Of a stretch of DNA of 30,158 nucleotides, positions 1 to 18,638 are shown in pieces (the stretch's first letter is position 1; each line of letters begins with the position of its first letter). Location of the stretch: the IMG/VR virus record IMGVR_UViG_3300042880_000279, positions 1 to 30,158 of that record. The stretch is one strand, 5' to 3'. The position numbers were made by a program, and so were the translations under genes. This DNA is from a virus. A model generated the notes under the pieces. It did not search any database. It saw only the letters and a program-made list of their open reading frames with translations, and was not told the origin of the DNA.

Positions 1-143
1 CCCGCCACGGTCTCTAAGTGGTTCACTGCGGCGTCGAATTCCCAAGAGCGGGACTCGCGGTTCAGTTCGGCAACGCTGGCCATGGCGAAGTAACGCGCGG
101 CTAGCAGAATATCCATTGAGGCGCGGGTGATTGGGTGATCCAT
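1..143 (-). CDS. Partial small phage protein (cut by window edge)
   Basis: An open frame on the minus strand starts with ATG at 143 and stays open to the window edge (47 codons). It begins MDHPITRASMDILLAARYFA and continues with a helical, hydrophilic sequence. Its start overlaps the stop of the next upstream gene by one base (TGATG), the usual sign of translational coupling, so it is the third gene of the leftward early operon. I do not recognise the family. The C-terminus lies outside the window. Confidence 0.6.
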   Translation of the reverse strand, partial: MDHPITRASMDILLAARYFAMASVAELNRESRSWEFDAAVNHLETVA

Positions 144-658
144 CACGCAGCCCTCGCTTCTGTGCTGATAACGACGCGCAGAAACTCGGCTGTTTGCGCA
201 GCCCACGCCGCATGGATCCCATGCTCGCTCGCCGCATCCCTCGCCGCATCCCACGCCGCAGCCAACGCCGCATCCCACGCCGCATCCCTCGCCGCATCCC
301 TCGCCGCATCCCTCGCCGCATCCAACTCATCTTTGGTCGCCAGTCCGTTTGCGTGCCGCTCTACCACATCAAGCGCGGCGATTGAGCGAGGGTCTGTCAT
401 CAGGTGCTGGACTTGCCGGGTGCACCAGACTGCGAATAAGCGCCATTCCTTCGCGTATTGCGGCTCAGCCCTGCAGCACCACAAAGCGTCATCAAGCCCA
501 TTGATCTCGACAATGCGGGCAAAGGGAATGGGGTCGTCACCACCCCAGCCAGCGCCAAGGCCAGCTTTCAGCTTTTGAAACCCCTCCAAAGGATTTTGAC
601 GAGGGCTCACCCCACACGGTCCATGAGCGCGGATGCGATTGAGTGTCGTGGTGATCAC
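143..658 (-). CDS. Phage protein with C-terminal DAA tandem repeats
   Basis: A 171-residue protein starting with GTG at 658, which overlaps the stop of the upstream gene (GTGA). The N-terminal ~110 residues form a globular part containing INGLDDALWCCRAEP and VWCTRQVQHLMTDPRSIAALDVVERHANGLAT, a family I know from phages and bacteria without an assigned function. Residues ~113-145 are a tetrapeptide-type repeat (DAAR/DAAW) encoded by eight 12-bp units, expected to form an alanine-rich helix. The end carries AASEHGIHAA, a peptide also present in the acetyltransferase-like gene at 21958-22368. Role unknown; probably an accessory early protein. The gene call is secure because the frame is open, coupled at both ends and family-like. 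Confidence 0.8.
   Translation of the reverse strand: MITTTLNRIRAHGPCGVSPRQNPLEGFQKLKAGLGAGWGGDDPIPFARIVEINGLDDALWCCRAEPQYAKEWRLFAVWCTRQVQHLMTDPRSIAALDVVERHANGLATKDELDAARDAARDAARDAAWDAALAAAWDAARDAASEHGIHAAWAAQTAEFLRVVISTEARAA
229..324. repeat. 12-bp minisatellite (8 units) encoding DAA repeats
   Basis: Eight consecutive 12-base units of the form [t/a]cgccgcatccc (plus strand), one of them diverged (gccgcagcca). Being a multiple of three, the unit can expand or contract without shifting the reading frame of the minus-strand gene. It encodes the DAAR/DAAW stretch. Confidence 0.9.
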
Positions 659-954
659 CAGGCGTACTCCTCAATGCGCTCGACAATGCGTTCGTGAAGC
701 TGCTCGGTGTCCTGCTTGATCCCGCGCATCAGGACTTCCCACAAATACGGGTCTGACTGCTTGGTGATGAAGTGCCGCTTGTGGAAAGAGCACTCCTCAA
801 TCTCGATTTCGGTAACTTCCCAATCCCATTCGCCGCGGCCTTCCTCGGAACATGCGAACTCAATTTTGCAATCGAATTCGGTCACGAAATTTCCGAGCTT
901 GGTGAGGACCGGAATGGTCCAGTTCAGTTTGATGCAGTGATCGCTGGAACTCAT
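655..954 (-). CDS. Small acidic early phage protein, unknown function
   Basis: First gene of the leftward operon. I place the start at ATG 954 because GGAG sits 8 bases upstream of it; a GTG at 993 would extend the protein to 112 residues, but it lies inside an operator-like palindrome. The 99-residue product is acidic (for example EWDWEVTEIEIEECSFHKRHF) and has no motif I recognise; it resembles a small single-domain protein with alternating beta strands followed by a C-terminal helix (ERIVERIEEY). Expression is probably controlled by the switch repressor, since two ATCAC-N5-GTGAT sites overlay its promoter. Confidence 0.7.
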   Translation of the reverse strand: MSSSDHCIKLNWTIPVLTKLGNFVTEFDCKIEFACSEEGRGEWDWEVTEIEIEECSFHKRHFITKQSDPYLWEVLMRGIKQDTEQLHERIVERIEEYAW

Positions 955-987
955 GTGGTCTGCTCCCGTGGTGTGATGGGAGAACCA

Positions 988-1004
988 TATCACTTCATGT
1001 GATA
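988..1004. promoter_or_regulatory. Operator-like palindrome O1 (TATCAC-N5-GTGATA)
   Basis: Perfect 6-bp inverted repeat TATCACttcatGTGATA. It shares ATCAC-N5-GTGAT with three other sites at 1019, 1402 and 1428. It covers the -10 region of the predicted leftward promoter. Binding by the XRE repressor at 1114-1368 or the Cro-like protein is inferred. Confidence 0.75.
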
Positions 1005-1026
1005 AAGTGCAAATGAAAAATCACAA
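999..1026 (-). promoter_or_regulatory. Candidate leftward early promoter
   Basis: Read on the minus strand: -35 TTGTGA (1026-1021), 16-base spacer, -10 TATCAC (1004-999). Matches to consensus are moderate. O2 covers the -35 and O1 covers the -10, as expected for a repressed phage promoter driving the genes from 954 leftward. Confidence 0.45.
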
Positions 1027-1035
1027 CGAGTGATA
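1019..1035. promoter_or_regulatory. Operator-like palindrome O2 (ATCAC-N5-GTGAT)
   Basis: AATCACaacgaGTGATA; 5-bp perfect arms and 5-base spacer, the same design as O1, O3 and O4. Its centre is 31 bases from that of O1, about three helical turns, so dimers could contact each other on one DNA face. Confidence 0.7.
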
Positions 1036-1113
1036 TCTTTTTTGACGCGCAGACCTGTTACGCGTTGTATTTCAGCAGCTTAATGCAATCAAAAATTTAC
1101 GTAGGGGGCAGGC

Positions 1114-1368
1114 TTAGACCCTGGCCAAATGCCCGAGTGCGATGGGCATTCCAGCTGCTTTCCCGAAAAACAGCCAATCTAGCGACACATCATAAACACG
1201 AACTAATTCAACAGCCACTTCAAGGGTTAAAGGGCGCTTGCCTGTTTCATACTGGCTCCATTGGGATTGCCCCGCGCCAATGGTCTCGGCAAATTGCTCT
1301 TGGTTTAGCCCCGCGTGATCACGAAGCGCCTTGAGCCGACGGCCAACTATTTTGGGGGAATCGGTCAT
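1114..1368 (-). CDS. XRE-family phage repressor (CI/Cro type)
   Basis: An 84-residue helix-turn-helix protein. The open frame extends upstream to 1476, but I choose ATG 1368 because the domain starts right after it (MTDSPKIVGRRLKALRDHAG) and the longer version would run through both operators. The HTH is LNQEQFAETIGAGQSQWSQYETGKRPL, a typical XRE motif with recognition helix QSQWSQYETG. Nothing like an S24 (LexA/CI) self-cleavage domain is present, so induction would not go through RecA-stimulated autocleavage of this protein. It is divergent from the Cro-like gene across a 76-base region with O3 and O4, and is the best candidate for binding all four sites. Whether it is the CI-like or the Cro-like partner cannot be read from sequence alone. 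Confidence 0.85.
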   Translation of the reverse strand: MTDSPKIVGRRLKALRDHAGLNQEQFAETIGAGQSQWSQYETGKRPLTLEVAVELVRVYDVSLDWLFFGKAAGMPIALGHLARV

Positions 1369-1401
1369 GGTTATTCGTAGAGCAATCGCAAAAAATCGAA
1401 A

Positions 1402-1418
1402 AATCACCGTGTGTGATG
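1402..1418. promoter_or_regulatory. Operator-like palindrome O3 (ATCAC-N5-GTGAT)
   Basis: AATCACcgtgtGTGATG, between the divergent repressor and Cro-like genes. Arms and spacing match O1, O2 and O4. Confidence 0.75.
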
Positions 1419-1419
1419 C

Positions 1420-1446
1420 TTGATTGCAATCACGTAGTGTGATAAT
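1420..1446 (+). promoter_or_regulatory. Candidate rightward early promoter
   Basis: -35 TTGATT (1420-1425) and -10 GATAAT (1441-1446) with a short 15-base spacer. O4 covers the spacer and -10. If used, transcription would start near 1453, giving an almost leaderless message for the ATG at 1457. Confidence 0.4.
1428..1444. promoter_or_regulatory. Operator-like palindrome O4 (ATCAC-N5-GTGAT)
   Basis: AATCACgtagtGTGATA, ending one base before the first ATG of the Cro-like gene. Its centre is 26 bases from O3. Occupancy should block initiation of the rightward transcript. Confidence 0.75.
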
Positions 1447-1666
1447 GCATGCGCTTATGGAGCAGGCTTCAGACATAAAGGCATTTGTAAAGGCCCTTGG
1501 TGGCGCAAAGAAAGTGGCGGCATTGACGGGGGTTGGCCCTGGTGCCGTCTACATGGCGATTTTGCGCGGAACTATCCCGCACAAGTGGCGGCTTCCCATG
1601 TTTGCGGAAGCAAAAGCCAAGAAAGTGAAGTTCGACCCGTCTCTCCTCGGCTTGGAAGCCGCCTGA
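1445..1666 (+). CDS. Cro-like (carph-isopro type) HTH regulator
   Basis: A 73-residue protein from ATG 1445, or 69 residues from ATG 1457 (the -10-like GATAAT overlaps the first ATG, which favours 1457; neither has a clear ribosome site). The sequence IKAFVKALGGAKKVAALTGVGPGAVYMAILRGTIPHKW matches the short YdaS/Cro-like HTH proteins sometimes labelled carph-isopro domain: an ALGG start, an HTH, and an IP.+W segment. Such proteins act as Cro-type antirepressors opposite a CI-type repressor. Divergent arrangement with 1114-1368 and O4 directly upstream support an autoregulated lytic-side regulator. Confidence 0.8.
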   Translation: MHALMEQASDIKAFVKALGGAKKVAALTGVGPGAVYMAILRGTIPHKWRLPMFAEAKAKKVKFDPSLLGLEAA

Positions 1667-1738
1667 TGAATTCCCCCGCCAGCCCTGCAGTCCCTCCCTG
1701 TGACATGGCAAGCGCACACTCCCGCGCGGCGGTAACTA

Positions 1739-1774
1739 GGCCCATCCTCCACACCCGGATGGGCCCCTTTCTTT
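1739..1774 (+). terminator. Rho-independent terminator after the Cro-like gene
   Basis: Perfect 9-bp stem GGCCCATCC / GGATGGGCC with a 9-base loop, followed by CCTTTCTTT. Lies about 70 bases after the Cro-like stop and before the early operon, the place of a tR-type terminator that antitermination would overcome. Confidence 0.75.
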
Positions 1775-1810
1775 CCCGGCGCCGCGCGCCGCAACGCTTC
1801 GCCCCGCCCC

Positions 1811-1830
1811 GCAACGCAACGCAACGCAAC
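1811..1830. repeat. (GCAAC)x4 tandem pentamer
   Basis: Four perfect copies of GCAAC followed by a degenerate fifth, preceded by GCCCC-rich sequence. Function unknown; could simply be slippage. Confidence 0.8.
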
Positions 1831-1833
1831 GAA

Positions 1834-2019
1834 CTATTTTCCACCTTCCAAATCTCGAACGATGGAGCTCGAAATTACTCCAATCGATACGAAGCCGCGA
1901 TCCTCCCTGACGCGGCCCGTAGGACGGGCGCGGCGATGAACGGACGGGACGTTACGGCCCCACCGTGCGCCGTCCAGCCGCGCCCGCTTCCACTTCACGA
2001 AATCAATCACTCTGCACAT
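1834..2019 (-). CDS. Possible small basic protein, unknown
   Basis: 61-codon frame starting at ATG 2019 with AAGGGA 6 bases upstream. The start MCRVIDFVKWKRARLDG resembles the opening of many short hypothetical proteins of alphaproteobacteria (xVIDFxxxKR). The rest is basic, without a motif. It lies opposite to the early operon, with the inverted repeat 2033-2056 between the divergent starts. Codon use is compatible with a real gene, but the evidence is thin. Confidence 0.4.
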   Translation of the reverse strand: MCRVIDFVKWKRARLDGARWGRNVPSVHRRARPTGRVREDRGFVSIGVISSSIVRDLEGGK

Positions 2020-2032
2020 GCCGTTTCCCTTA

Positions 2033-2056
2033 GTTCACTTGCTCGCAACAGTGAAC
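2033..2056. promoter_or_regulatory. Inverted repeat GTTCACT-N10-AGTGAAC upstream of early operon
   Basis: Perfect 7-bp arms with a 10-base centre (one DNA turn), a few bases before the strong ribosome site (AAGAGGAG) of the first early gene. Could be an operator for a dimeric regulator or a leader hairpin; it lacks a T-run and so is not a terminator. Confidence 0.5.
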
Positions 2057-2074
2057 CTAAGAGGAGTTTGTTCC

Positions 2075-2467
2075 GTGTTTTTGGAAAAGAGATCCATGAC
2101 CGCCGTGCTTGTTGAAAAGCTGACCGCCATTGGTGGTGCCGGCACACTCAAAGAACGTGAGTGGCGCATCCGATGCCGCCTGAACTGGCACCACAAGGCC
2201 CGTAGTGCGGTGCGGCATCTGCTGTATCGCGAACGGGTTCCTTCCTTTGAGGAGGGCAAACAAATTGAGGCTGCGCACCTTAGGTTTTGCGCGGAAAGGG
2301 TTCGACAGAATGCAGCCGAGAATGCGGCTTTGTTTCAGGAAATGCGATCCGCTCTGGCCGCGATGGAGGCAAGCGATCCTGACTTTTTTGCGCCCGACAT
2401 TGATGCGGTGCGCGCGATGCTGCTTCAGGGCCGGGACCAAGCTAACGAAACTCGCACTGAGGATTGA
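2075..2467 (+). CDS. Early phage protein, unknown function
   Basis: First gene of the rightward early operon. I prefer GTG 2075 (130 residues) because AAGAGGAG lies exactly 8 bases upstream; ATG 2096 gives 123 residues with a poorer site. The product is mainly helical and charged (LKEREWRIRCRLNWHHKARSAVRHLLYRERVPSFEEGKQIEAAHLRF), with an arrangement similar to small DNA-associated phage proteins, but no family is recognised. The following methyltransferase gene starts 6 bases after its stop. Confidence 0.75.
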   Translation: MFLEKRSMTAVLVEKLTAIGGAGTLKEREWRIRCRLNWHHKARSAVRHLLYRERVPSFEEGKQIEAAHLRFCAERVRQNAAENAALFQEMRSALAAMEASDPDFFAPDIDAVRAMLLQGRDQANETRTED

Positions 2468-2473
2468 GGATTA

Positions 2474-3634
2474 ATGGAATTTCACCCGATTGCAAACTGC
2501 TTCCCGCTGATCGATGGCCGCGAGTTTGATGAGCTTGTGGCCGACGTCAAGGCTCACGGCATTCATGAGCCTGTGATCATTCATGAAGGTATGATCCTAG
2601 ACGGGCGCAACAGGTATCGCGCTTCCCAGATTGCGGGCGTTGACTGTCCGCTGGTTCCGTATGACGGGAATGATCCGGTAGGATTTGTTGTCTCGCTCAA
2701 CCTTCGGCGTCGGCACCTCAGCGAGGGGCAGCGTGCTTGGGTGGCTGCACAGATTGCTAACTTGGGGCATGGGGAAAAGAAGGCAGATAGATCAATTGAT
2801 CTATCTTCTGTGTCTCAAGAAGACGCGGCCACAATGCTTAACGTAAGCGTGCCGAGCGTGAAGCGCGCGACTGTAGTCCGCGATCACGGCGTTCCCGAGC
2901 TGCAAGACAAGGTAGCCAAAGGTGAAGTAGCCCCGTCCACCGCCGCTGATGTCGCTCGTCTTCCTCAGGAGGAACAAAAGGAGATCGTGGCCAAGGGCGA
3001 GAAGGAAATCCTTGAGGCCGCGAAACGCATTCGTTCCGAGAAGGCAGAACAGCGCCGCGCGGAACTGGTTGAGGTTGCGGCGACAAAGGTTGAAATGCCA
3101 GACGGCAAGTTTGAAACGATCATCATTGATCCGCCGTGGCCAATGCAGAAGATCGAGCGGGATGTACGCCCGAATCAGGTGGCTTTCGAATACCCGACAA
3201 TGACGGAAGGCGAGCTTGTTGTATTTGGCGACAAGGTCAACGATGCGGCGGCGGATGATTGCCACATGTTCATGTGGACCACACACAAGTTTTTGCCAAT
3301 GTCGCTTCGGCTGCTAGAGGCTTGGGGCTTTCGTTATGTGCTTACGATGGTGTGGCACAAGAACGGCGGGTTCCAGCCGATTGGTTTACCGCAGTACAAC
3401 TGCGAATTCTGTGTCTATGCGCGCAAAGGTTCACCAAGCTTTGCTGATACCAAGGCATTTAACGCTTGCTTCGATGCGCCACGGCGCGAGCATAGCCGGA
3501 AGCCAGATGAGTTCTATGACGTCATTCGCCGCGTAACGCATGGACCGCGTATTGATGTCTTTTCGCGCGAGCGGAGGGAAGGCTTCTCGCAGTTTGGTAA
3601 TGAAGCTGGCCTGTTTTCTGGCGAGGCCGCATGA
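2474..3634 (+). CDS. ParB-like domain fused to MT-A70 adenine-N6 methyltransferase
   Basis: 386 residues in two parts. Residues ~5-90 are a ParB/sulfiredoxin-like domain: FDELVADVKAHGIHEPVIIH, the core ILDGRNRYRA (41-50) and LNLRRRHLSEGQRA (75-88), followed by a helical HTH-like stretch to ~200. Residues ~207-375 are an MT-A70 methyltransferase: the catalytic DPPW is at 219-222 in FETIIIDPPWPM, with MWTTHKFLPMSLRLLEAWGF and VWHKNGG downstream. The expected reaction is transfer of methyl from S-adenosylmethionine to adenine N6. In phages such enzymes can protect DNA from host restriction. The ParB part could supply target recognition (inference). The next gene overlaps by 4 bases (ATGA). Confidence 0.92.
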   Translation: MEFHPIANCFPLIDGREFDELVADVKAHGIHEPVIIHEGMILDGRNRYRASQIAGVDCPLVPYDGNDPVGFVVSLNLRRRHLSEGQRAWVAAQIANLGHGEKKADRSIDLSSVSQEDAATMLNVSVPSVKRATVVRDHGVPELQDKVAKGEVAPSTAADVARLPQEEQKEIVAKGEKEILEAAKRIRSEKAEQRRAELVEVAATKVEMPDGKFETIIIDPPWPMQKIERDVRPNQVAFEYPTMTEGELVVFGDKVNDAAADDCHMFMWTTHKFLPMSLRLLEAWGFRYVLTMVWHKNGGFQPIGLPQYNCEFCVYARKGSPSFADTKAFNACFDAPRREHSRKPDEFYDVIRRVTHGPRIDVFSRERREGFSQFGNEAGLFSGEAA

Positions 3635-4146
3635 GCGGATACTCTTCTGATCGGCAATGGTCTGACCTGATGATCCCTCAGATTAAGCAGATTGTTGGGC
3701 CGTTCCTTCTGGAGACTTCTAGCTTCGACGTGGACGCAAAGCAGGCCACTGACTTGATTGTTTTTACGGCTCGCGACATGAGGATTGCAGCACGAGTGCG
3801 GCGACCTGGGTATGCCGAAAGATATCCCTACGAGTTCACTATTCGGTGCAAGCGGGATAGCGGCGCGGAAACTGAACTTTCAAAGATTGTGAACGGCTGG
3901 GGTGACTGGCTGTTTTACGGGCACGCCGATGCAAGCAATTGGATTGCCCGGTGGTTTCTCATCGATCTTCACGCATTCCGCGCCGCTTTGATCAGGTGCG
4001 CCATGAACGGCGCTAGCCTCAAAGTCACTGAGAAGGCGAATGGCGATGGGACTTATTTCAAATCGTTTGACTTGAGGTCTTTCCCCGAAAGGCCGGCAAT
4101 TCTGATTGGGGCTAGCCATGACATCAAAAACCAAGAAGCCGCATAG
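3631..4146 (+). CDS. Conserved phage protein, possible restriction-endonuclease fold
   Basis: 171 residues, start overlapping the methyltransferase stop (ATGA). I recognise the family from phage early operons: KQATDLIVFTARDMRIAARVRRPGYAERYPYEFTIR and ETELSKIVNGWGDWLFYGHAD, then a WFLIDLHAFR strand-helix. The order ATDL, then a strand ending in RVRR, loosely follows a PD-(D/E)XK core but lacks a clean E-x-K, so nuclease activity is only a suggestion. Position between a methyltransferase and a VRR-NUC gene supports a role in DNA metabolism. Confidence 0.75.
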   Translation: MSGYSSDRQWSDLMIPQIKQIVGPFLLETSSFDVDAKQATDLIVFTARDMRIAARVRRPGYAERYPYEFTIRCKRDSGAETELSKIVNGWGDWLFYGHADASNWIARWFLIDLHAFRAALIRCAMNGASLKVTEKANGDGTYFKSFDLRSFPERPAILIGASHDIKNQEAA

Positions 4147-4161
4147 AATGGGAATTTTGAC

Positions 4162-4590
4162 ATGACCACGGGCTATGCATGGGCGAAGGCGCGCACGACG
4201 GCAGCGCTCAAGGCTGAGGTCGCGGCGGCTGGGAAGGCTGAGGAGCGGATTCACATTGCAATCGTGAACCTGCTTACCGCCACGGCGGCACCGGGCGTGC
4301 GGTTTCATCACGTTCCGAACGGCGGCCTCAGGTCCAAGCGTGAGGCCGCGCGCTTCAAGCTGATGGGCGTGAAGCCTGGCGTTTCTGACCTGGTTATTTC
4401 CATGCCGGAAGGCCGCACGGGCTACATGGAAGTCAAATCGCCTAAGGGCCGGTTGACTGAGGAACAAGAGAACTTCCTCGCTGCGATGGCTGCGAATGGC
4501 AATCTGACGGCGGTGGTTCGTAGCCTTGATGAGGCTGCTGACGTTCTGGCCGCATGGGGTGCGATCCGCCGGGTGAGGGTGGCGGCATGA
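4162..4590 (+). CDS. VRR-NUC domain nuclease
   Basis: 142 residues from ATG 4162 (TGGGA 8 bases upstream). Residues ~32-135 match the VRR-NUC family: FHHVPNGGLRSKREAARFKLMGVKPGVSDLVI gives the GVSD acidic residue, and GYMEVKSPKGRLTEEQENFL gives the E-V-K of the PD-(D/E)XK nuclease site. The fold is known from FAN1 and phage Holliday-junction-type nucleases; stand-alone phage forms probably cut branched DNA during replication or recombination. The N-terminal 30 residues are an alanine/lysine-rich helix. Stop overlaps the next gene (ATGA). Confidence 0.9.
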   Translation: MTTGYAWAKARTTAALKAEVAAAGKAEERIHIAIVNLLTATAAPGVRFHHVPNGGLRSKREAARFKLMGVKPGVSDLVISMPEGRTGYMEVKSPKGRLTEEQENFLAAMAANGNLTAVVRSLDEAADVLAAWGAIRRVRVAA

Positions 4591-4808
4591 GCGACGACCG
4601 CATAGACGCGTCATGCGCTGACTGCGCTTTCATGCACCGCGACCGTGACGGCGGGCGGTGGTGTTCGTCCCCCCAGCTTCTGAGGGCCATGGGCCATTCC
4701 CAGCGGTGTGTCTGGGAACGTGACGGGGTGCGGGATCAATCGCGGGCAGGCGACACGGCGAAGTGTGGCCCGTCCGGGGTCAATTTCAAGCGGCGGAGTC
4801 TTGTCTGA
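4587..4808 (+). CDS. Small cysteine-rich (zinc-binding-like) phage protein
   Basis: 73 residues starting at ATG 4587, overlapping the VRR-NUC stop by 4 bases; an upstream in-frame start would extend into that gene. Cysteines are arranged CADC-x13-C-x(n)-RC-x(n)-CG (residues C8, C11 and later), typical of small phage proteins that bind zinc. Ends with KCGPSGVNF. No catalytic residues. Stop and next start share one base (TGATG). Confidence 0.75.
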   Translation: MSDDRIDASCADCAFMHRDRDGGRWCSSPQLLRAMGHSQRCVWERDGVRDQSRAGDTAKCGPSGVNFKRRSLV

Positions 4809-5290
4809 TGGAATGGACGGATGAGAAAATCGAGACCATGCGCCGCCTTCTCGCGGAAGGGTTTTCATGCGGATATGTCGCAGCCCAACTCGGAACGACG
4901 CGCAATTCCGTCATCGGCAAAGTGAGGCGGATTGAGATCGAGACTGGCGAGAAATGGAAGCGTCCGTCCGGGACAATCTACGGCGCGCGCCAGAAGGCCT
5001 CGCCAGCGGCAACGCCCGGTCTTGCCACTGTCCTGCAGCTCAGGCGCCCCTTGCCCGCCAGCGCCGTTCCCAAGCCCGTCAAATACGTTCCGGGGGTTCC
5101 TGTCGGTATCATCGACGCAACCGGATGCCGGTGGCCTGTTGATCAGGGCAACGTTCCCGGCCGTCACCTGTTCTGCAACGGGTCGATTCACAAGGGCAGC
5201 TACTGCGAGTTCCATTCGCAGGAGAATGTGGCGAGCTATTCGGCGGGGCTGATCAGGAAGACCATCAAGCAAGCCGTGAGGGTGGCATAA
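4808..5290 (+). CDS. gcrA: Phage GcrA-family transcription regulator
   Basis: 160 residues from ATG 4808 (coupled TGATG). Residues 1-42, MEWTDEKIETMRRLLAEGFS then VAAQLGTTRNSVIGKVRR, match the GcrA DNA-binding helix-turn-helix. After a proline/alanine-rich linker, residues ~110-140 (CRWPVDQ, HLFCN, SYCEFHSQ) match the conserved cysteine/histidine C-terminal segment of GcrA. In Caulobacter, GcrA works with sigma-70 RNA polymerase at promoters carrying N6-methyladenine. A phage copy could redirect host cell-cycle promoters or boost phage promoters (inference). It shares an operon with an adenine methyltransferase. Confidence 0.9.
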   Translation: MEWTDEKIETMRRLLAEGFSCGYVAAQLGTTRNSVIGKVRRIEIETGEKWKRPSGTIYGARQKASPAATPGLATVLQLRRPLPASAVPKPVKYVPGVPVGIIDATGCRWPVDQGNVPGRHLFCNGSIHKGSYCEFHSQENVASYSAGLIRKTIKQAVRVA

Positions 5291-6702
5291 TGGGTTTACC
5301 GTTCAAGCAACAGGACCCCGCCCTTGATGAGCGGTTCGGTAACGAGGCGGGCCTTGTTGGTGCCCTGCTGATTTATGCCGATCCGGCGCTATATCGTGCT
5401 TCCGCCGCCATATGTGAGGCGGGGCATTTCTCTGACCCGTTCAATGCGCGCATGTTTGAGACAATCGGACGCGGTGTTGAGGCCGGACTTGCCAATTTCC
5501 CCTTGGTGCACTGGATTATCGGGCAATTCCGCGATGATCAGACGCTTGATGAAATGAAGATCACTGCTTCGGGGATTGTCGCAAAATATTGCGGCATGGC
5601 ATTCCCGGCAATTGCTGTTGAGGGGGCCTCTCGGCAGCTAAAGCATGATTTCCTGAAGGACCTGCTTAACGAAGTGGTTGAGTCCGGGGATACTGCGGCG
5701 GCGGAAACCACTGCGGCGGAAATGGAACGGCTTTCCCGCGCGCACCTGACCAAGGATGCGGGCATTGACCGCTTGGGCAACGTGGCCCGTGGGGTTGTCG
5801 AGCGGATATCCGATAGTTTTGCGAATGGCGTGGTGCCGGATCATTCCGCGTGGCCCGGATCGGCGCGTTTGGCTGAGCTTATGGGCGGCTGGCGTCGTGG
5901 CAGGCTTTACGTGATCGGCGGGCGTCCGGGTGCCGGCAAGACCACGGCAGCGCTTTCCTTGCTGCTCAGGACGGCAGAGAGGGGCCATGGCGTCCTGATG
6001 TTTGAGCTTGAAATGACGGCTCAAGAGCTAACTGAGATTGCCTTGTGCGATATGGCTTGGTCGAGCAAGGCCCGGATCGAGTATCGTGACCTGTCCACCT
6101 TCACAGATATCAGCCAGGACAAGGTTGAAAGGCTATGTGCCGCTGATAACCGGCTTCAGCGCCTGCCGTTTGTGATTTCGGATTCGCCGGGCCTGACCAT
6201 AGCTGAGATACGTTCTCAGGCCATGCAGTATGCCCAACGGCTTGAGGCGAGCGGATCACGGCTTGAGGTGGTCTGCATTGATCACCTGAACCTCGTGAAG
6301 GCGACGGGCCGCTATCAAAGCAACAAGGTGGCAGAGACTGAGGAGGTCTCGAATGCCTTGAAGGCGCTGGCCAAGGAATTGAAGTGCGCCGTTGTCGTGT
6401 TGTGTCAGCTCAACCGTGGTGTTGAGGGCCGGGACGACAAGAGGCCGGGGCTGGCGGATTTGAGGTGGTCCGGCGCGATTGAGCAGGACGCTGACATGGT
6501 GATGTTTGTTTACCGTGAGGCCTATTACCTGTCCAAGCCGGTTGATGATCCTACAGCCGATATTGAGCGCCAGGACAGGCTTCGGGAAGTCCAGAACAGG
6601 TTGGAAGTCATTGTGGCGAAGCATCGCGGCGGGCCGACGCCGGTGCTGGAGTTCTTCTGCGACATGGGGTGCGGTGTGGTTCGAGATATGGAGAAGCGCT
6701 GA
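5290..6702 (+). CDS. dnaB: DnaB-like replicative DNA helicase
   Basis: 470 residues, start sharing one base with the gcrA stop (TAATG). The N-terminal domain (FGNEAGLVGALLIYADPALY) matches the DnaB primase-interacting domain. The RecA-like ATPase has Walker A GRPGAGKTT (211-219), the Walker-B strand VVCIDHLNLV, motif VVLCQLNR, and DLRWSGAIEQDADMVMFVYRE. The end, AKHRGGPTPVLEFFCDMG, is the usual DnaB finish. It unwinds phage DNA at the fork as a hexamer. No phage polymerase or primase gene is in the window, so host enzymes are probably used. The following gene overlaps by one base. Confidence 0.93.
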   Translation: MGLPFKQQDPALDERFGNEAGLVGALLIYADPALYRASAAICEAGHFSDPFNARMFETIGRGVEAGLANFPLVHWIIGQFRDDQTLDEMKITASGIVAKYCGMAFPAIAVEGASRQLKHDFLKDLLNEVVESGDTAAAETTAAEMERLSRAHLTKDAGIDRLGNVARGVVERISDSFANGVVPDHSAWPGSARLAELMGGWRRGRLYVIGGRPGAGKTTAALSLLLRTAERGHGVLMFELEMTAQELTEIALCDMAWSSKARIEYRDLSTFTDISQDKVERLCAADNRLQRLPFVISDSPGLTIAEIRSQAMQYAQRLEASGSRLEVVCIDHLNLVKATGRYQSNKVAETEEVSNALKALAKELKCAVVVLCQLNRGVEGRDDKRPGLADLRWSGAIEQDADMVMFVYREAYYLSKPVDDPTADIERQDRLREVQNRLEVIVAKHRGGPTPVLEFFCDMGCGVVRDMEKR

Positions 6703-7529
6703 TGAGTGTGTCATCACAGGAATTGCGGAAGCTTGCGGCTCTGAACCTTTCTCCTGAGCAGATGTCAGCCGTGCTCAACCTTCTTGCAGATCGCGCCGAA
6801 GCTGAGGAGCGTAGGAAGGCTGCTCAGGCGGAAATGCCTTGTGCGGCTTTTGGCGGGGCGGGCAAATCAAAGGGTGCTGAAAGGACGGCTCGCTGGCGCG
6901 CCAAGAAAGCTGGCGATCAGGGCGTCACAGAAAGCGTCACAAGCGTCACAGAAAGCGTCACAGAAAGCGTCACAAGCGTCACAGAAAGCGTCACAAGCGT
7001 CACAGAAAGCGTCACAAGCGTCACCCCTTCCCCCCTTGTTCCCCCCCTTGAAGTTTCCCCCACACCCCCTTCTAAAACCCCCCCTATAATCCCCCCATCC
7101 CAGCCGCGCGCGCCTGACGAGTTCGAGGCTGTTGACGCTGCGCTTCGGAAAATCGAAGGCCTCGGCAACCATCCGGTGGCGGTTGATCCCGTCATCGGCC
7201 CAATCTGGCAACTGGTCCAGCAGGGCTACAACCTCAAAACCGAAATCATTCCGAGCATTCGCCAGCAAATCGCCAAGACCCGAAAGCGAATAACCCGATG
7301 GGGGTATTTCGTTCCGGGCATCATCGAGGCCAGAACCGGGCCTGCTGAGGTGATTTCGCCCGCCGTCACTGCCGATTGGCAAAAGAAACTTGATTGGGCA
7401 AGGCGGGAACGCAAATGGCCCTACAGCGCATGGGGGCCACCGCCTCACAAGCCCGGTTGCCGTGTCCCGCCTGCGATGCTCAAGCCGGATGACGGCGAAG
7501 GCTGGGGCGATTGGAGGCTGGCCTCATGA
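6702..7529 (+). CDS. Putative phage replication/primosomal protein with VTES repeats
   Basis: 275 residues from ATG 6702, coupled to the helicase stop. Residues 1-45 are helical (LRKLAALNLSPEQMSAVLNLLADRAEAEERR); then ERTARWRAKKA, a basic motif seen at the start of many phage replisome organiser-type proteins. Residues ~75-110 are a VTES/VTS repeat, followed by a ~25-residue proline-rich linker. The C-terminal domain (FEAVDAALRKIEGLGNHP to GYFVPGIIEART) is a conserved phage domain near dnaB genes. By position and architecture it may load the helicase or bind the origin, as lambda O and P do. The repeat DNA inside the gene may itself be the origin. Activity is inferred, not shown. Confidence 0.65.
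   Translation: MSVSSQELRKLAALNLSPEQMSAVLNLLADRAEAEERRKAAQAEMPCAAFGGAGKSKGAERTARWRAKKAGDQGVTESVTSVTESVTESVTSVTESVTSVTESVTSVTPSPLVPPLEVSPTPPSKTPPIIPPSQPRAPDEFEAVDAALRKIEGLGNHPVAVDPVIGPIWQLVQQGYNLKTEIIPSIRQQIAKTRKRITRWGYFVPGIIEARTGPAEVISPAVTADWQKKLDWARRERKWPYSAWGPPPHKPGCRVPPAMLKPDDGEGWGDWRLAS
6922..7025. repeat. Iteron-like direct repeats, 10 x GCGTCACA
   Basis: Ten copies of GCGTCACA (the last ends in C) at 6922, 6934, 6943, 6955, 6967, 6976, 6988, 6997, 7009 and 7018. Spacings alternate mostly 12 and 9, giving a 21-base higher-order period, two helical turns. They lie within the replication-type gene and are followed by a pyrimidine-rich tract. The geometry resembles origin iterons in lambda O, but protein linker expansion is the alternative. 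Confidence 0.85.
7022..7101. other. Strand-asymmetric pyrimidine tract next to the repeats
   Basis: About 80 bases that are overwhelmingly C and T on the plus strand, including several runs of five or more C. Encodes the proline-rich linker of the replication-type protein. Such tracts can form unusual DNA structures; functional meaning is uncertain. Confidence 0.6.
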
Positions 7530-7657
7530 ACTACGTCTACACCCTCCTCCTCTCCGCCTATGGCCCTCGCTGCAAGTCCTACAACCCCAAATGCGAGGCA
7601 TGCCGGGCGTGGGCTGAATACGACGCCATGAAGGCCATCACAAAGGAAGCGGCATGA
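7526..7657 (+). CDS. 43-residue cysteine-containing phage protein
   Basis: Starts at ATG 7526 overlapping the previous stop and ends overlapping the next start (ATGA at both ends), so it fits exactly between two genes. The sequence begins MNYVYTLLLSAYGPRCKSYN and continues KCEACRAWAEYDAMK; three cysteines (C16, C23, C26) could bind a metal with another ligand. Function unknown. The perfect coupling at both ends is the main evidence that it is translated. Confidence 0.65.
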   Translation: MNYVYTLLLSAYGPRCKSYNPKCEACRAWAEYDAMKAITKEAA

Positions 7658-8106
7658 GCTGGCTAATCGTTAGGACTGACGCCCGCAAGGAATCCTATGT
7701 GGCCGCTCAAATAGCCGGGCATGGCCATGACGCATGGGTTCCCGCTCAAATGATCCCGGTCCGCCCTCATGGCGCTCGCAAGCTCACGGCAAAGGCTGGG
7801 GTGACCATCAAAGAGCTGCCGATCCTTCCGAGGCGGGTTTTTGTGCAGGTTGATTGGCATGAGGCGAATTCGTTCGCCAGCATTCGCCACGTTCAAGGCG
7901 TAGAGCGTGACGGGGAGGAGCGGGTTATCCTCATTCCTGACGCTCAAGTTGCCTCATTCAGGGCAGAGATAGACCGTGAGAACACGTCAGCGCTGGCCTT
8001 GGCACAAGCCAGAAGCCGTAAGCAGAAAGCGAAATGGCGCTCGCTTCAGGAAGGGCTTATTGACCTGATTGACAGCGCAAAGCAAAAAATGAGCCAAGCG
8101 GCATAG
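7654..8106 (+). CDS. NusG-like phage transcription antiterminator
   Basis: 150 residues from ATG 7654 (ATGA coupling). The N-terminal ~95 residues resemble the NusG NGN domain: WLIVRTDARKESYVAAQIAGHGHDAWVP (the beta strand, helix and aromatic region), a short insertion, then ELPILPRRVFVQVDW corresponding to the PLFPGYVFV strand of NusG, and FASIRHVQGV. The C-terminal part is a charged helix, with no KOW domain visible. NusG paralogues bind the RNA polymerase clamp and suppress pausing or termination. As last gene before the late region, it could act as the late-operon antiterminator (inference). Confidence 0.85.
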   Translation: MSWLIVRTDARKESYVAAQIAGHGHDAWVPAQMIPVRPHGARKLTAKAGVTIKELPILPRRVFVQVDWHEANSFASIRHVQGVERDGEERVILIPDAQVASFRAEIDRENTSALALAQARSRKQKAKWRSLQEGLIDLIDSAKQKMSQAA

Positions 8107-8294
8107 CCGCCACAATTCCGCCATGATTGCATGCGTTATAGGGTTGAATATCTGTACGCATATGCCGCTCAAGAGGGTTCGCCCCGTGGCTGCGGAACGC
8201 TGTAGTTTCAGCGTCATTGGCGAGATTTGCCACCATTCAGCAAATGCTAAAATTTGCTAAAACCCGGTAAAAACGAAACAAAAGGACAATCACC
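8107..8294. promoter_or_regulatory. Gap before late operon with candidate late promoter
   Basis: The only long intergenic gap between the early and late genes. TTGCAT (8127-8132), 16-base spacer and TATCTG (8149-8154) form a moderate sigma-70-type promoter. ATGCGT (8131-8136) and ACGCAT (8156-8161) form a symmetric pair around it, so a dimeric regulator could bind across. An A-rich leader precedes the first late gene. A GGTTCG stretch at 8177 looks vaguely like a tRNA T-arm, but no cloverleaf forms. Confidence 0.4.
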
Positions 8295-8678
8295 ATGTCT
8301 GGCGACCAAGCTAATACGGCAGTCGCCGCCAGAAATGAAAAAGGCCAATTCCTATCTGGGACTATTGGCATTGGCGGCAGGCCAAAAGGCGCACGCAACA
8401 AGCTAGGCGAAGAGTTCATCAAGGCTCTTGCCAGCGACTTTGACAAAAACGGACCGGAAGCAATTGCCCGTGTTCGTGAAGAGCGCCCCCAGGATTACCT
8501 TAAGGTGATCGCTTCCCTGCTTCCGAAGGAAATCAAGCTGACCGATGAGCGAGAACTCAGCGACGAAGAACTTGACCGCCGAATTCGAGACCTTGCCTCA
8601 GTCCTCGGGGACTTTATTGCAGGTCAAGGCGGAACTCTTGTCGTTACTGGAGGAGGCTCGGAGACGCCATCACACTAG
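8295..8678 (+). CDS. DUF5681 protein, small-terminase position
   Basis: 127 residues. The start contains KGQFLSGTIGIGGRPKGARNKLGEEFIKALASDF, the GGRPKGARNK motif typical of DUF5681 proteins found immediately before large terminases, then YLKVIASLLPKEIKL. These probably recognise phage DNA for packaging and feed it to the large terminase. Coding overlap with the large subunit is 134 bases if that gene begins at 8545. A second, shorter relative lies at 26832-27092. Confidence 0.8.
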   Translation: MSGDQANTAVAARNEKGQFLSGTIGIGGRPKGARNKLGEEFIKALASDFDKNGPEAIARVREERPQDYLKVIASLLPKEIKLTDERELSDEELDRRIRDLASVLGDFIAGQGGTLVVTGGGSETPSH

Positions 8679-10020
8679 GCGGCTCGACAGGTACAAGCCA
8701 TATCCGAAGCAAATCGAGTTTCACACAGCTGGGGCTGACCGGCGTGAACGACTGTTCATGGCAGGCAATCAGCTCGGGAAAACATTGGCGGGTGCGGCTG
8801 AAGCCGCCATGCATCTCACAGGGCAGTATCCGGGCTGGTGGCAGGGCAAGCGGTTTGACAGGCCTGTTATGATGCTTGCCGGTTCCGAGTCTTACGAGTT
8901 AACCCGCGACGGCGTTCAGAGGCTTCTTGTGGGCCCGCCAGAGCGTGAAACGGAATGGGGAACGGGATACATACCCGGCGCATCCATCGCCTCTACAGAC
9001 CGCCGCCAGGGCGTTCCGAACGCTCTTGAGAACGTCACGGTTCAACACGCATCGGGCGGCACAAGCGTTGTGCAGTTCAAGGCCTATGAGCAGGGCCGGG
9101 GCAAGTGGCAGGCTTCGACGGTCGATTACGTCTGGTTTGACGAGGAACCGCCGGAAGACGTCTATTTTGAGGGTATCACCCGCACGAATGCGACACGCGG
9201 CCTGATCGCGGTCACCTTTACTCCGCTCAAGGGCATGTCAAGCGTCGTGGGGCGCTATCTTCTGGAACCATCGCCTGACCGGGCGGTAATTTCCATGACC
9301 ATTGATGACGCGCTGCACTACACCGACGAGGATCGGGCGCGCATCATTGCCAGTTACCCGGCTCATGAACGAGAGGCCCGCACCAAAGGCATCCCGTCTC
9401 TTGGCTCGGGGCGTATCTTCCCGGTGGCGGAGGAAAGCATTGTCATTGATCCCATTCCTATCCCGGAACATTGGGCTCAGATCGGCGGCATGGATTTCGG
9501 GTTTGATCACCCGTTTGGAGCGGTCAGGTGTGCCTGGGACCGGGACAACGATACATTCTATGTCGCCGCTGACTATCGGGAGCGGGAAGCAACACCGATC
9601 ATTCATTCAGCCGCGGTGAAGCCTTGGGCGGAATGGTTGCCATGGGCTTGGCCGCACGACGGGCTGCAACACGACAAGGGGTCTGGCGAGCAGTTGGCAG
9701 AACAATACAGGCAACAGGGGCTAAAGCTGTTGCCAGAACGTGCCACATTCGACGACGGCACCAACGGCGTCGAGGCTGGTTTGTCTGACATGCTACAACG
9801 GATGCAGACGGGCCGCTGGAAGGTGTTCCGGACTTGCGCTCACTGGCTTGAGGAATTCAGGCTGTATCATCGGAAAGACGGCAAAGTTGTAAAAGAGCGT
9901 GACGACGTGATTTCGGCGTCACGATATGCCTTGATGATGAAGCGCATGGCGACGTTGAAGCCTCAACCGCGTAAATCAGTTTCTCGCACTCTGCATCCTC
10001 AAGGGGCTTGGCTGGCATGA
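8545..10020 (+). CDS. Terminase large subunit (P22 gp2-like)
   Basis: Packaging motor ATPase and nuclease. From ATG 8545 it has 491 residues, but the first 24 read out of frame through the upstream gene; TTG 8617, with GGGGA 5 bases upstream, starts just before VKAELLSLLEEARRRHH, where relatives begin, and may be the true start. Numbering from 8545: RLDRYKPYPKQIEFH at ~46-60, Walker A GNQLGKT at 74-80, Walker B DYVWFDEE at 194-201, motif III-like AVTFTPLKG after it, and the nuclease acidic strand GGMDFGF at 304-310 with later DDVISASRYALMM. Headful packaging like P22 is expected. Confidence 0.92.
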   Translation: MSENSATKNLTAEFETLPQSSGTLLQVKAELLSLLEEARRRHHTRRLDRYKPYPKQIEFHTAGADRRERLFMAGNQLGKTLAGAAEAAMHLTGQYPGWWQGKRFDRPVMMLAGSESYELTRDGVQRLLVGPPERETEWGTGYIPGASIASTDRRQGVPNALENVTVQHASGGTSVVQFKAYEQGRGKWQASTVDYVWFDEEPPEDVYFEGITRTNATRGLIAVTFTPLKGMSSVVGRYLLEPSPDRAVISMTIDDALHYTDEDRARIIASYPAHEREARTKGIPSLGSGRIFPVAEESIVIDPIPIPEHWAQIGGMDFGFDHPFGAVRCAWDRDNDTFYVAADYREREATPIIHSAAVKPWAEWLPWAWPHDGLQHDKGSGEQLAEQYRQQGLKLLPERATFDDGTNGVEAGLSDMLQRMQTGRWKVFRTCAHWLEEFRLYHRKDGKVVKERDDVISASRYALMMKRMATLKPQPRKSVSRTLHPQGAWLA

Positions 10021-10846: not shown

Positions 10847-10908
10847 AAACATACACCTTTGCCGAACTGTTTAAGATGTATCCGAGATTCGCAGCCTCAC
10901 CTATGTGA
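10843..10908 (+). CDS. Possible 21-residue microprotein
   Basis: ATG 10843 overlaps the previous stop (ATGA) and the frame runs MKTYTFAELFKMYPRFAASP to TGA at 10906. Translational coupling and natural composition are the only support; no family is recognised. Confidence 0.25.
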   Translation: MKTYTFAELFKMYPRFAASPM

Positions 10909-17639: not shown

Positions 17640-18638
17640 ATGGAAGATACACCAGAAGTCTCGGTTCTCGTTTATGCGCAGGACGGCACGCCAACGGGCA
17701 TCACGTCTCTTGAGATAACGGACTCGACAGAGCCGGGCCGCGCGCTTTTGACGGCTGCAAGCGTGACGGAACAGCGTACTGATCTTGGCCTTGGCACTGC
17801 CGCGCTGGCCAATACCGGCGATTTTGCGGCAACCTCGCACACGCATATCATTTCCAACGTCACGGGCTTGCAGACGGCGCTGGACGGCAAGGCGGCAACC
17901 TCGCACACGCATATCATTTCCAATGTCACGGGCCTGCAGACGGCCTTGGACGGCAAGGCGGCGCTGGTTCACTCACATATCATCGCTGACACAACCGGGC
18001 TACAGACGGCGCTGGATGGCAAGGTCGGCATTCCTGCATCATCCGCTCAAGGCGACATTCTCTATCGTGATGGCACCGGCTGGGTACGCCTTGCGGCAGG
18101 AACGAGCGGGCAATTGCTGCGCACGAATGGCGCGGGCGCAAACCCCAGCTGGGGTGTTGGGGCAAACATCGTTGTTGGGTCCACGATAGCGACAACCAGC
18201 GGCAACATTCAGGACTTCACCGGCATTCCAGCAGGCGTGCGGCGCGTGCATTTGATCTTTGATGCGGTGAGCACGAACGGGATCCAAAGCGTTCTTGTTC
18301 AGCTCGGCACCTCAGGCGGTGTGGAAACCACGGGCTACTTTGGCGGATTTTCCGCGCTGACGAACGCTGCTGCGGTGCTGAACGTCAACGGTTTTGCCGG
18401 TTTCCCTATTGTCGGCAACACCGCAGGTTTTAGCCGATTTGGGCGACTAACACTAACCACTATCGGGGTAAACCGCTGGATTGGCGAGGCTGTCATCGGA
18501 ACGGACGGTGTTTTGGCTACTCAAGTCATGGGCGGCGTCAAGGCTATTTCCGGCACCCTTGACCGCCTCCGGCTCGGAATAGTTGGTGGCACCGAGCAGT
18601 TTGACCAAGGCTCCGTCACGCCTATGTGGGAGTTCTGA
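17640..18638 (+). CDS. Fibre-type tail protein with three 22-residue repeats
   Basis: 332 residues from ATG 17640 (GTG 17634 is alternative). Residues ~62-128 are three repeats SHTHIISNVTGLQTALDGK, the third more diverged (VHSHIIADTTGLQTALDGK), of the kind that make slender trimeric fibre shafts. After that: GDILYRDGTGWVRLAAGTSGQLLRTNGAGANPSWG, a common phage fibre connector, and a beta-rich C-terminus likely to bind receptor. The next gene looks like a fibre partner protein. Confidence 0.75.
   Translation: MEDTPEVSVLVYAQDGTPTGITSLEITDSTEPGRALLTAASVTEQRTDLGLGTAALANTGDFAATSHTHIISNVTGLQTALDGKAATSHTHIISNVTGLQTALDGKAALVHSHIIADTTGLQTALDGKVGIPASSAQGDILYRDGTGWVRLAAGTSGQLLRTNGAGANPSWGVGANIVVGSTIATTSGNIQDFTGIPAGVRRVHLIFDAVSTNGIQSVLVQLGTSGGVETTGYFGGFSALTNAAAVLNVNGFAGFPIVGNTAGFSRFGRLTLTTIGVNRWIGEAVIGTDGVLATQVMGGVKAISGTLDRLRLGIVGGTEQFDQGSVTPMWEF
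17826..18023. repeat. Three tandem 66-bp repeats in fibre gene
   Basis: Units start at 17826, 17892 and 17958. The first two are nearly identical, suggesting recent duplication; the third is diverged. Length is a multiple of three, so copy number could vary the fibre length in frame. Confidence 0.8.

Follow-up and report, generated by a model that had tools for sequence, protein, structure and literature searches.

A phage early operon encoding a ParB-like/MT-A70 methyltransferase and a GcrA-family protein

The window analysed here is the whole of an IMG/VR virus record (IMGVR_UViG_3300042880_000279), 30,158 bases in length. It contains genes for the large terminase subunit (TerL), portal, scaffold and capsid, which confirm that it is a phage, and its repressor/Cro-like region (1114-1666) suggests that this phage is temperate. 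The host is probably an alphaproteobacterium. Two proteins were tried and rejected as more precise host markers. The chromosomal relatives of DnaB reach no more than 39% identity, and that along only a part of its length (the best full-length relatives, at 34%, are from the Acetobacteraceae), and therefore point no further than to the class, while the best-scoring match to GcrA (37%) is in a Phenylobacterium MAG. The features of the early region are listed in the table.

Table. Features of the early region and its surroundings (window coordinates).
Feature	Position	Strand	Remarks
HTH repressor (CI-like)	1114..1404	-	start codon possibly further upstream, at 1476
Cro-like regulator, heading the rightward early operon	1424..1666	+	
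Intergenic gap preceding the operon (candidate promoter region)	1667..2095	.	without GANTC
MT-A70 methyltransferase with a fused ParB-like N-terminal domain, 386 aa	2474..3634	+	DPPW at residues 219-222
171-aa protein, start overlapping the MT-A70 stop codon	3631..4146	+	no Pfam, PHROGs or NCBIfam family
VRR-NUC nuclease (PF08774)	4162..4590	+	adjoins GcrA in L031 also
Small Cys-rich protein, 73 aa	4587..4808	+	overlaps the GcrA start
GcrA-family protein, 160 aa	4808..5290	+	DNA-binding domain 1-46, linker about 47-100, C-terminal sigma-interacting-type domain
DnaB-like replicative helicase	5290..6702	+	start codon overlapping the GcrA stop
Repeat-containing protein 3' of DnaB	6690..7529	+	inside the stretch missing in L121
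NusG-like transcription antiterminator	7654..8106	+	phrog_6386
Terminase large subunit	about 8295/8545..10020	+	ParB-fused methyltransferase upstream on the same strand

A rightward, co-directional set of genes begins at about 2018-2096. Within it, stop and start codons overlap at 3631-3634, 4587-4590, 4808 and 5290, all on the same strand, and the overlap at 5290 implies that GcrA is translationally coupled to DnaB. The MT-A70 gene and gcrA are 1.17 kb apart, separated by three genes (that for VRR-NUC and two of no known family). A first-pass annotation had placed an MT-A70 enzyme and a complete GcrA-like protein in one early operon. This is correct: the MT-A70 profile (PF05063) scores 66.8 bits against a cut-off of 23.9, the GcrA profile (PF07750) scores 75-76 bits against 26.9, and the genes are co-directional with overlapping codons. 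The observation is far beyond chance.

A nucleotide search of the phage collection with positions 2474-5290 gave no match, and the VRR-NUC protein, used as a query for syntenic relatives, gave a single match at 25%. Scanning positions 1-8600 with a consensus promoter returned zero sites, this consensus being uninformative for the host group. Repeats were seen at 197-338 (tandem 12-nt units within a minus-strand ORF, 143-658, encoding DAARDAA-type repeats), at 6901-7037 (GCGTCACAGAAA repeats in the ORF 3' of dnaB, encoding TESVTSVTESV) and at 17826-18023 (three 66-nt repeats, 68-94% alike, in an ORF of the predicted virion region).

The start of gcrA was assigned to 4808 rather than to an upstream GTG. 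The match to PF07750 covers profile positions 1-143 of 155, and phmmer aligns residues 1-138 with Caulobacter GcrA (7ye1; 1.4e-15), to which the protein is about 33% identical. Its score with the NCBIfam equivalog NF050816 is 59 bits compared with the 280 required; it is therefore a member of the family and not the host orthologue. The structural model shows a three-helix DNA-binding domain (residues 1-46, pLDDT 94-97), a low-confidence or disordered linker and an ordered C-terminal domain. The best Foldseek matches are the DNA-binding domain of Caulobacter GcrA with and without methylated DNA (5yiv and 5yiu; 43 residues, rmsd 0.8-1.1 A, 51% identity), and the complex with methylated DNA (5yiv) superposes on the predicted domain at 1.1 A. 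The HTH and the Cys/His C-terminal domain are thus both intact, as originally described. Among 28 phage GcrAs, R32, N33, V35, I36 and G37 of the third helix and C107, C123, C133 and H136 of the C-terminal domain are invariant, and the recognition-helix sequence TRN[SA]VIGK is retained. From these conserved motifs, the protein is predicted to bind sigma domain 2 and methylated GANTC. A GcrA-type HTH alone is no proof of methylation reading since low-score matches to it also occur in Lactobacillus phages. Elsewhere, two Phenylobacterium genomes (G115 and G116) carry 5 and 3 GcrA paralogues respectively, possibly in part derived from prophages.

Mesorhizobium phage vB_MseS-P1 (L006, 6370-6690) encodes a 106-aa protein annotated as GcrA that comprises only the C-terminal Cys/His segment, scores below threshold with PF07750 (18 bits against 26.9) and belongs to an operon that also encodes a GapR-like protein, ParB and MT-A70. 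It is possibly a sigma-binding decoy, as it could bind sigma without DNA. By extension, the GcrA of the window might be not an activator but a competitor or decoy, titrating away sigma-70 or the GcrA sites of the host and so blocking host cell-cycle transcription. We judge this quite unlikely: the window protein retains a confidently predicted DNA-binding domain, for which a pure sigma decoy would have no need.

The product of the gene at 2474-3634 is assigned to the MT-A70 family, the sole methyltransferase family matched by Pfam, from its gathering score, its DPPW active site and the METTL3-like fold of the catalytic domain in its model (Foldseek 1.6e-12; mean pLDDT 81.5). PHROG 21315 spans residues 2-382 (1.4e-55). 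The enzyme has an N-terminal domain that the first-pass annotation missed. PHROG ParB-like families match it (1.2e-17), and box-like motifs (ILDGRNR and NLRRRHL) are conserved, whereas the curated ParB models remain below their cut-offs (PF02195, 20.3 against 26.3 bits; TIGR00180, 20.1 against 58.45 bits). For this reason the first 100 or so residues are labelled only as 'ParB-like'. ParB and MT-A70 also occur as separate genes, for example in genome G427 and in vB_MseS-P1. No significant blastp or profile match was found between the window enzyme and the GANTC methyltransferase PhiLM21_p027; by sequence comparison the MT-A70 appears to have no relationship to CcrM or to the phage enzymes with tested GANTC specificity, and its substrate could be non-GANTC DNA motifs or RNA.

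If the substrate were RNA, such as 16S rRNA, and the ParB-like part served as a nucleic-acid adaptor, the enzyme could not mark promoters. METTL3 and other MT-A70 family enzymes are its closest solved relatives in both sequence and fold, and one prophage MT-A70, which shares the DPPW motif and works with a partner that binds DNA/RNA, has a strong preference for 16S rRNA over DNA (PMC10810198). However, the DNA-acting MT-A70 complex MTA1c also matches the model by fold, and a ParB-like fusion upstream of the terminase is typical of phage DNA-modification loci (PMC6536676). Moreover, a close relative of the rRNA enzyme is cited in PMC10810198 as methylating GATC in DNA when overproduced. We regard an RNA substrate as somewhat unlikely.

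The nearest relatives give no indication that the two genes travel together. The closest gcrA (in L121/L003) has 94.3% DNA identity over 407 bases (4808-5214), beginning exactly at the ATG. Since identity starts at the start codon, gcrA has been exchanged without its upstream neighbours. After 5214, identity with L121 returns only at 7525, a point which in L121 directly follows gcrA (L121 10001-10665 aligns with window 4808-7657, with about 95% identity at 7525-7657). The segment between, with dnaB and the repeat protein gene, is absent or replaced in L121, and the sharp borders point to exchange of a replication module. L121/L003 lack MT-A70, and none of the five methyltransferase types sought was found around their gcrA. 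The dN/dS ratio of gcrA between the window and L121 is 0.14, so the gene is maintained under purifying selection. In the locus with the nearest DnaB (L031), the order VRR-NUC-GcrA-DnaB is kept and MT-A70 is missing.

Viewed from the methyltransferase, GcrA was found in 0/23 of the nearest viral relatives of the ParB-MT-A70 protein, so this lineage works without GcrA; such absences are weak evidence, as most of the records compared are metagenomic fragments. These relatives probably infect other host groups. Their observed/expected ratios for GANTC are mostly 0.7-1.0, compared with a median of 0.51 for GcrA-bearing phages. Among 385 genomes of the class, a single full-length ParB-MT-A70 relative was found (39%), with no GcrA nearby on its partial contig. 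The two genes are not conserved together in relatives.

We then compared GcrA loci with loci carrying GapR. Of 176 GcrA loci found in IMG/VR, 80 were kept. MT-A70 is present in 5 of the 50 GcrA-bearing records longer than 20 kb, always within 2.0 kb of gcrA and on the same strand; the same records include N6_N4 (11), Dam-type (3) and above-cut-off C5 (6) enzymes. Besides the window, nine or more phage loci have MT-A70 close to GcrA. When PhiLM21-type enzymes were added and near-duplicates removed, 69 distinct GcrA loci remained. An adenine-type enzyme lies within 3 kb on the same strand in 25/69 (opposite strand, 0), a count in which N6_N4 enzymes may make N4-methylcytosine and divergent PhiLM21-type matches may differ in specificity. 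The control, GapR loci from phages without GcrA (one of which, L233, contains a weak GcrA match), gave 16/50. Where full flanks were available, the figures were 24/56 for GcrA and 14/36 for GapR without GcrA, which indicates that the proximity stems mostly from a common early region. An early impression of striking linkage between GcrA and methyltransferases was mostly removed by this control. Among GapR loci, an adenine-type enzyme occurs anywhere in 10/17 with GcrA and 22/63 without (P=0.097). Direct adjacency (150 bp or less) behaves differently, at 10/69 GcrA loci compared with 1/50 GapR loci (P=0.024, with the threshold set after the data had been seen).

GANTC occurs 42 times in the window compared with 97 expected from a third-order model (ratio 0.43); for seven similarly shaped control patterns the ratio is 0.83-1.16. 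This depletion is consistent with a host that writes GANTC methylation. Most phage loci bearing GcrA or GapR show it too, and it may be a signature of the host class. No GANTC was found in the gaps before the early operon (1405-1423 and 1667-2095). Intergenic sites lie at 10886, 15328, 15397 and 26800, about 4 of the 42 in roughly 7% intergenic DNA (an estimated fraction); with no clear enrichment, site positions were rejected as evidence of GcrA targets. From this distribution, phage early promoters are not indicated as targets. A published scan of phage genomes likewise found GcrA sites without asymmetric distribution (PMC9437464). Of the earlier proposal that the phage proteins drive phage promoters or alter the host cell cycle, action on promoters or on the host cell cycle stays plausible since both GcrA domains are kept.

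The first-pass annotation went further and suggested that the phage writes and reads its own mark. In such a dedicated pair, MT-A70 would write N6-methyladenine at phage promoters and phage GcrA would read it and recruit RNA polymerase, giving phage transcription that is timed by replication or restricted to the phage itself. The shared operon and the intact GcrA domains are in keeping with this, as are the adenine methyltransferases of several unrelated families that recur beside phage gcrA and the GANTC enzymes mimicking CcrM that some phages of Alphaproteobacteria encode (PMC5537653). Against it stand the lack of conserved pairing, a frequency within 3 kb no higher than in the GapR control, the distribution of GANTC and an MT-A70 unrelated to the GANTC enzymes of phages. 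In the window, a writer-reader relationship is unsupported and is weakened by the separate histories of the genes, and we consider it unlikely. It may exist elsewhere, in phages whose methyltransferase directly overlaps gcrA. The best candidates are the loci in which adenine-type enzymes of different families adjoin or overlap gcrA (L136, L142, L153, L168, L179, L199, L122, L131 and L160).

The explanation that we favour, with a probability of about 0.6, is that the transcription unit combines two independent early functions: a GcrA that would read the mark of the host CcrM and a ParB-MT-A70 that would modify phage nucleic acid. The gene content, order and domain structure, the purifying selection on gcrA and the separate mobility of the genes are established at the level of sequence. 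The phage GcrA would act as a sigma-70 cofactor, its N-terminal domain recognising N6-methyladenine written by host CcrM in GANTC and its C-terminal domain binding sigma domain 2. Produced together with the coupled DnaB helicase, and hence at the time of phage replication, it would raise RNA polymerase activity at methylated host replication and cell-cycle promoters, or at a few sites in the phage late region. That gcrA was exchanged by itself and is under purifying selection is an argument that the mark of the host suffices. The ParB-MT-A70 protein would be an adenine methyltransferase of phage nucleic acid, positioned on the phage genome by its ParB-like domain, and would most likely mark phage DNA against restriction. 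The two proteins are thus more likely to be separate tools for early takeover of the host than a writer and a reader dedicated to one mark. Against independence, direct adjacency at other loci exceeds what a shared hotspot predicts, and the recurrence of MT-A70 close to GcrA in other phages also counts against it. One further proposal is that phage GcrA and any available adenine methyltransferase form interchangeable epigenetic switches, in which replicated phage DNA receives a mark that the phage's own GcrA reads, thereby activating later genes. In this scheme, the window would represent an MT-A70 version with a mark other than GANTC. This is very unlikely in our view; if true, it implies a GcrA with a new methyl-motif specificity.

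Reports of phage GcrA date back to 2012. Our literature search, which was incomplete in coverage, found no functional test of it and no paper treating GcrA and a phage methyltransferase as a unit. The GcrA of phiCbK-like Caulobacter phages (gp222; PMC3556154) and gp5 of Agrobacterium phage Atu_ph08 (PMC6630229) are likewise phage members of the family, proposed to alter the replication state of the host. Those phages are unrelated to that of the window, an adjacent MT-A70 is not discussed for them, and the translational coupling of GcrA to DnaB distinguishes the window. Host GcrA and CcrM (PMC3667746, PMC7987155, PMC7403470) provide the same GcrA architecture and recognition helix, with adenine methylation as the mark, and a preference for methylated GANTC is seen as well in GcrA from other alphaproteobacteria (PMC3667746). 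Host CcrM, however, belongs to a different methyltransferase family and methylates GANTC, whereas the window enzyme is an MT-A70 with a ParB-like domain. The phage mimics of CcrM (PhiLM21_p027 and relatives; PMC5537653) are, like the window enzyme, adenine methyltransferases of alphaproteobacterial phages encoded near replication genes, but they are NPP[FWY] enzymes with tested GANTC specificity and no detectable sequence relation to it. In a 2022 paper, these mimics and phage GcrA are mentioned as indications that the cell cycle of the host is of interest to phages (PMC9437464).

For the fused methyltransferase, the closest precedent is the ParB-terminase locus (PMC6536676), in which an N-terminal ParB-like domain and a methyltransferase lie upstream of the terminase on the same strand, with 36 examples in Paracoccus phages and prophages; the window differs in its MT-A70 type and in the replication module between methyltransferase and terminase. 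ParB-CTPase fusions have also been published (PMC12704722). The prophage MT-A70/PNB-2 rRNA methyltransferase (PMC10810198) similarly combines a DPPW MT-A70 with a nucleic-acid-binding partner, but there the partner is a separate winged-helix protein and the host group is another. Phage GcrA, phage mimics of CcrM and ParB-methyltransferase fusions are, then, already published. Early operons of phages of the Alphaproteobacteria type often combine GcrA, GapR and adenine methyltransferases in variable ways, and what seems less recorded is how often GcrA and an adenine methyltransferase share an operon. This sharing, including the directly overlapping pairs, is the part worth testing, and the survey makes it possible to ask whether phages exploit the GANTC mark of the host or write their own.
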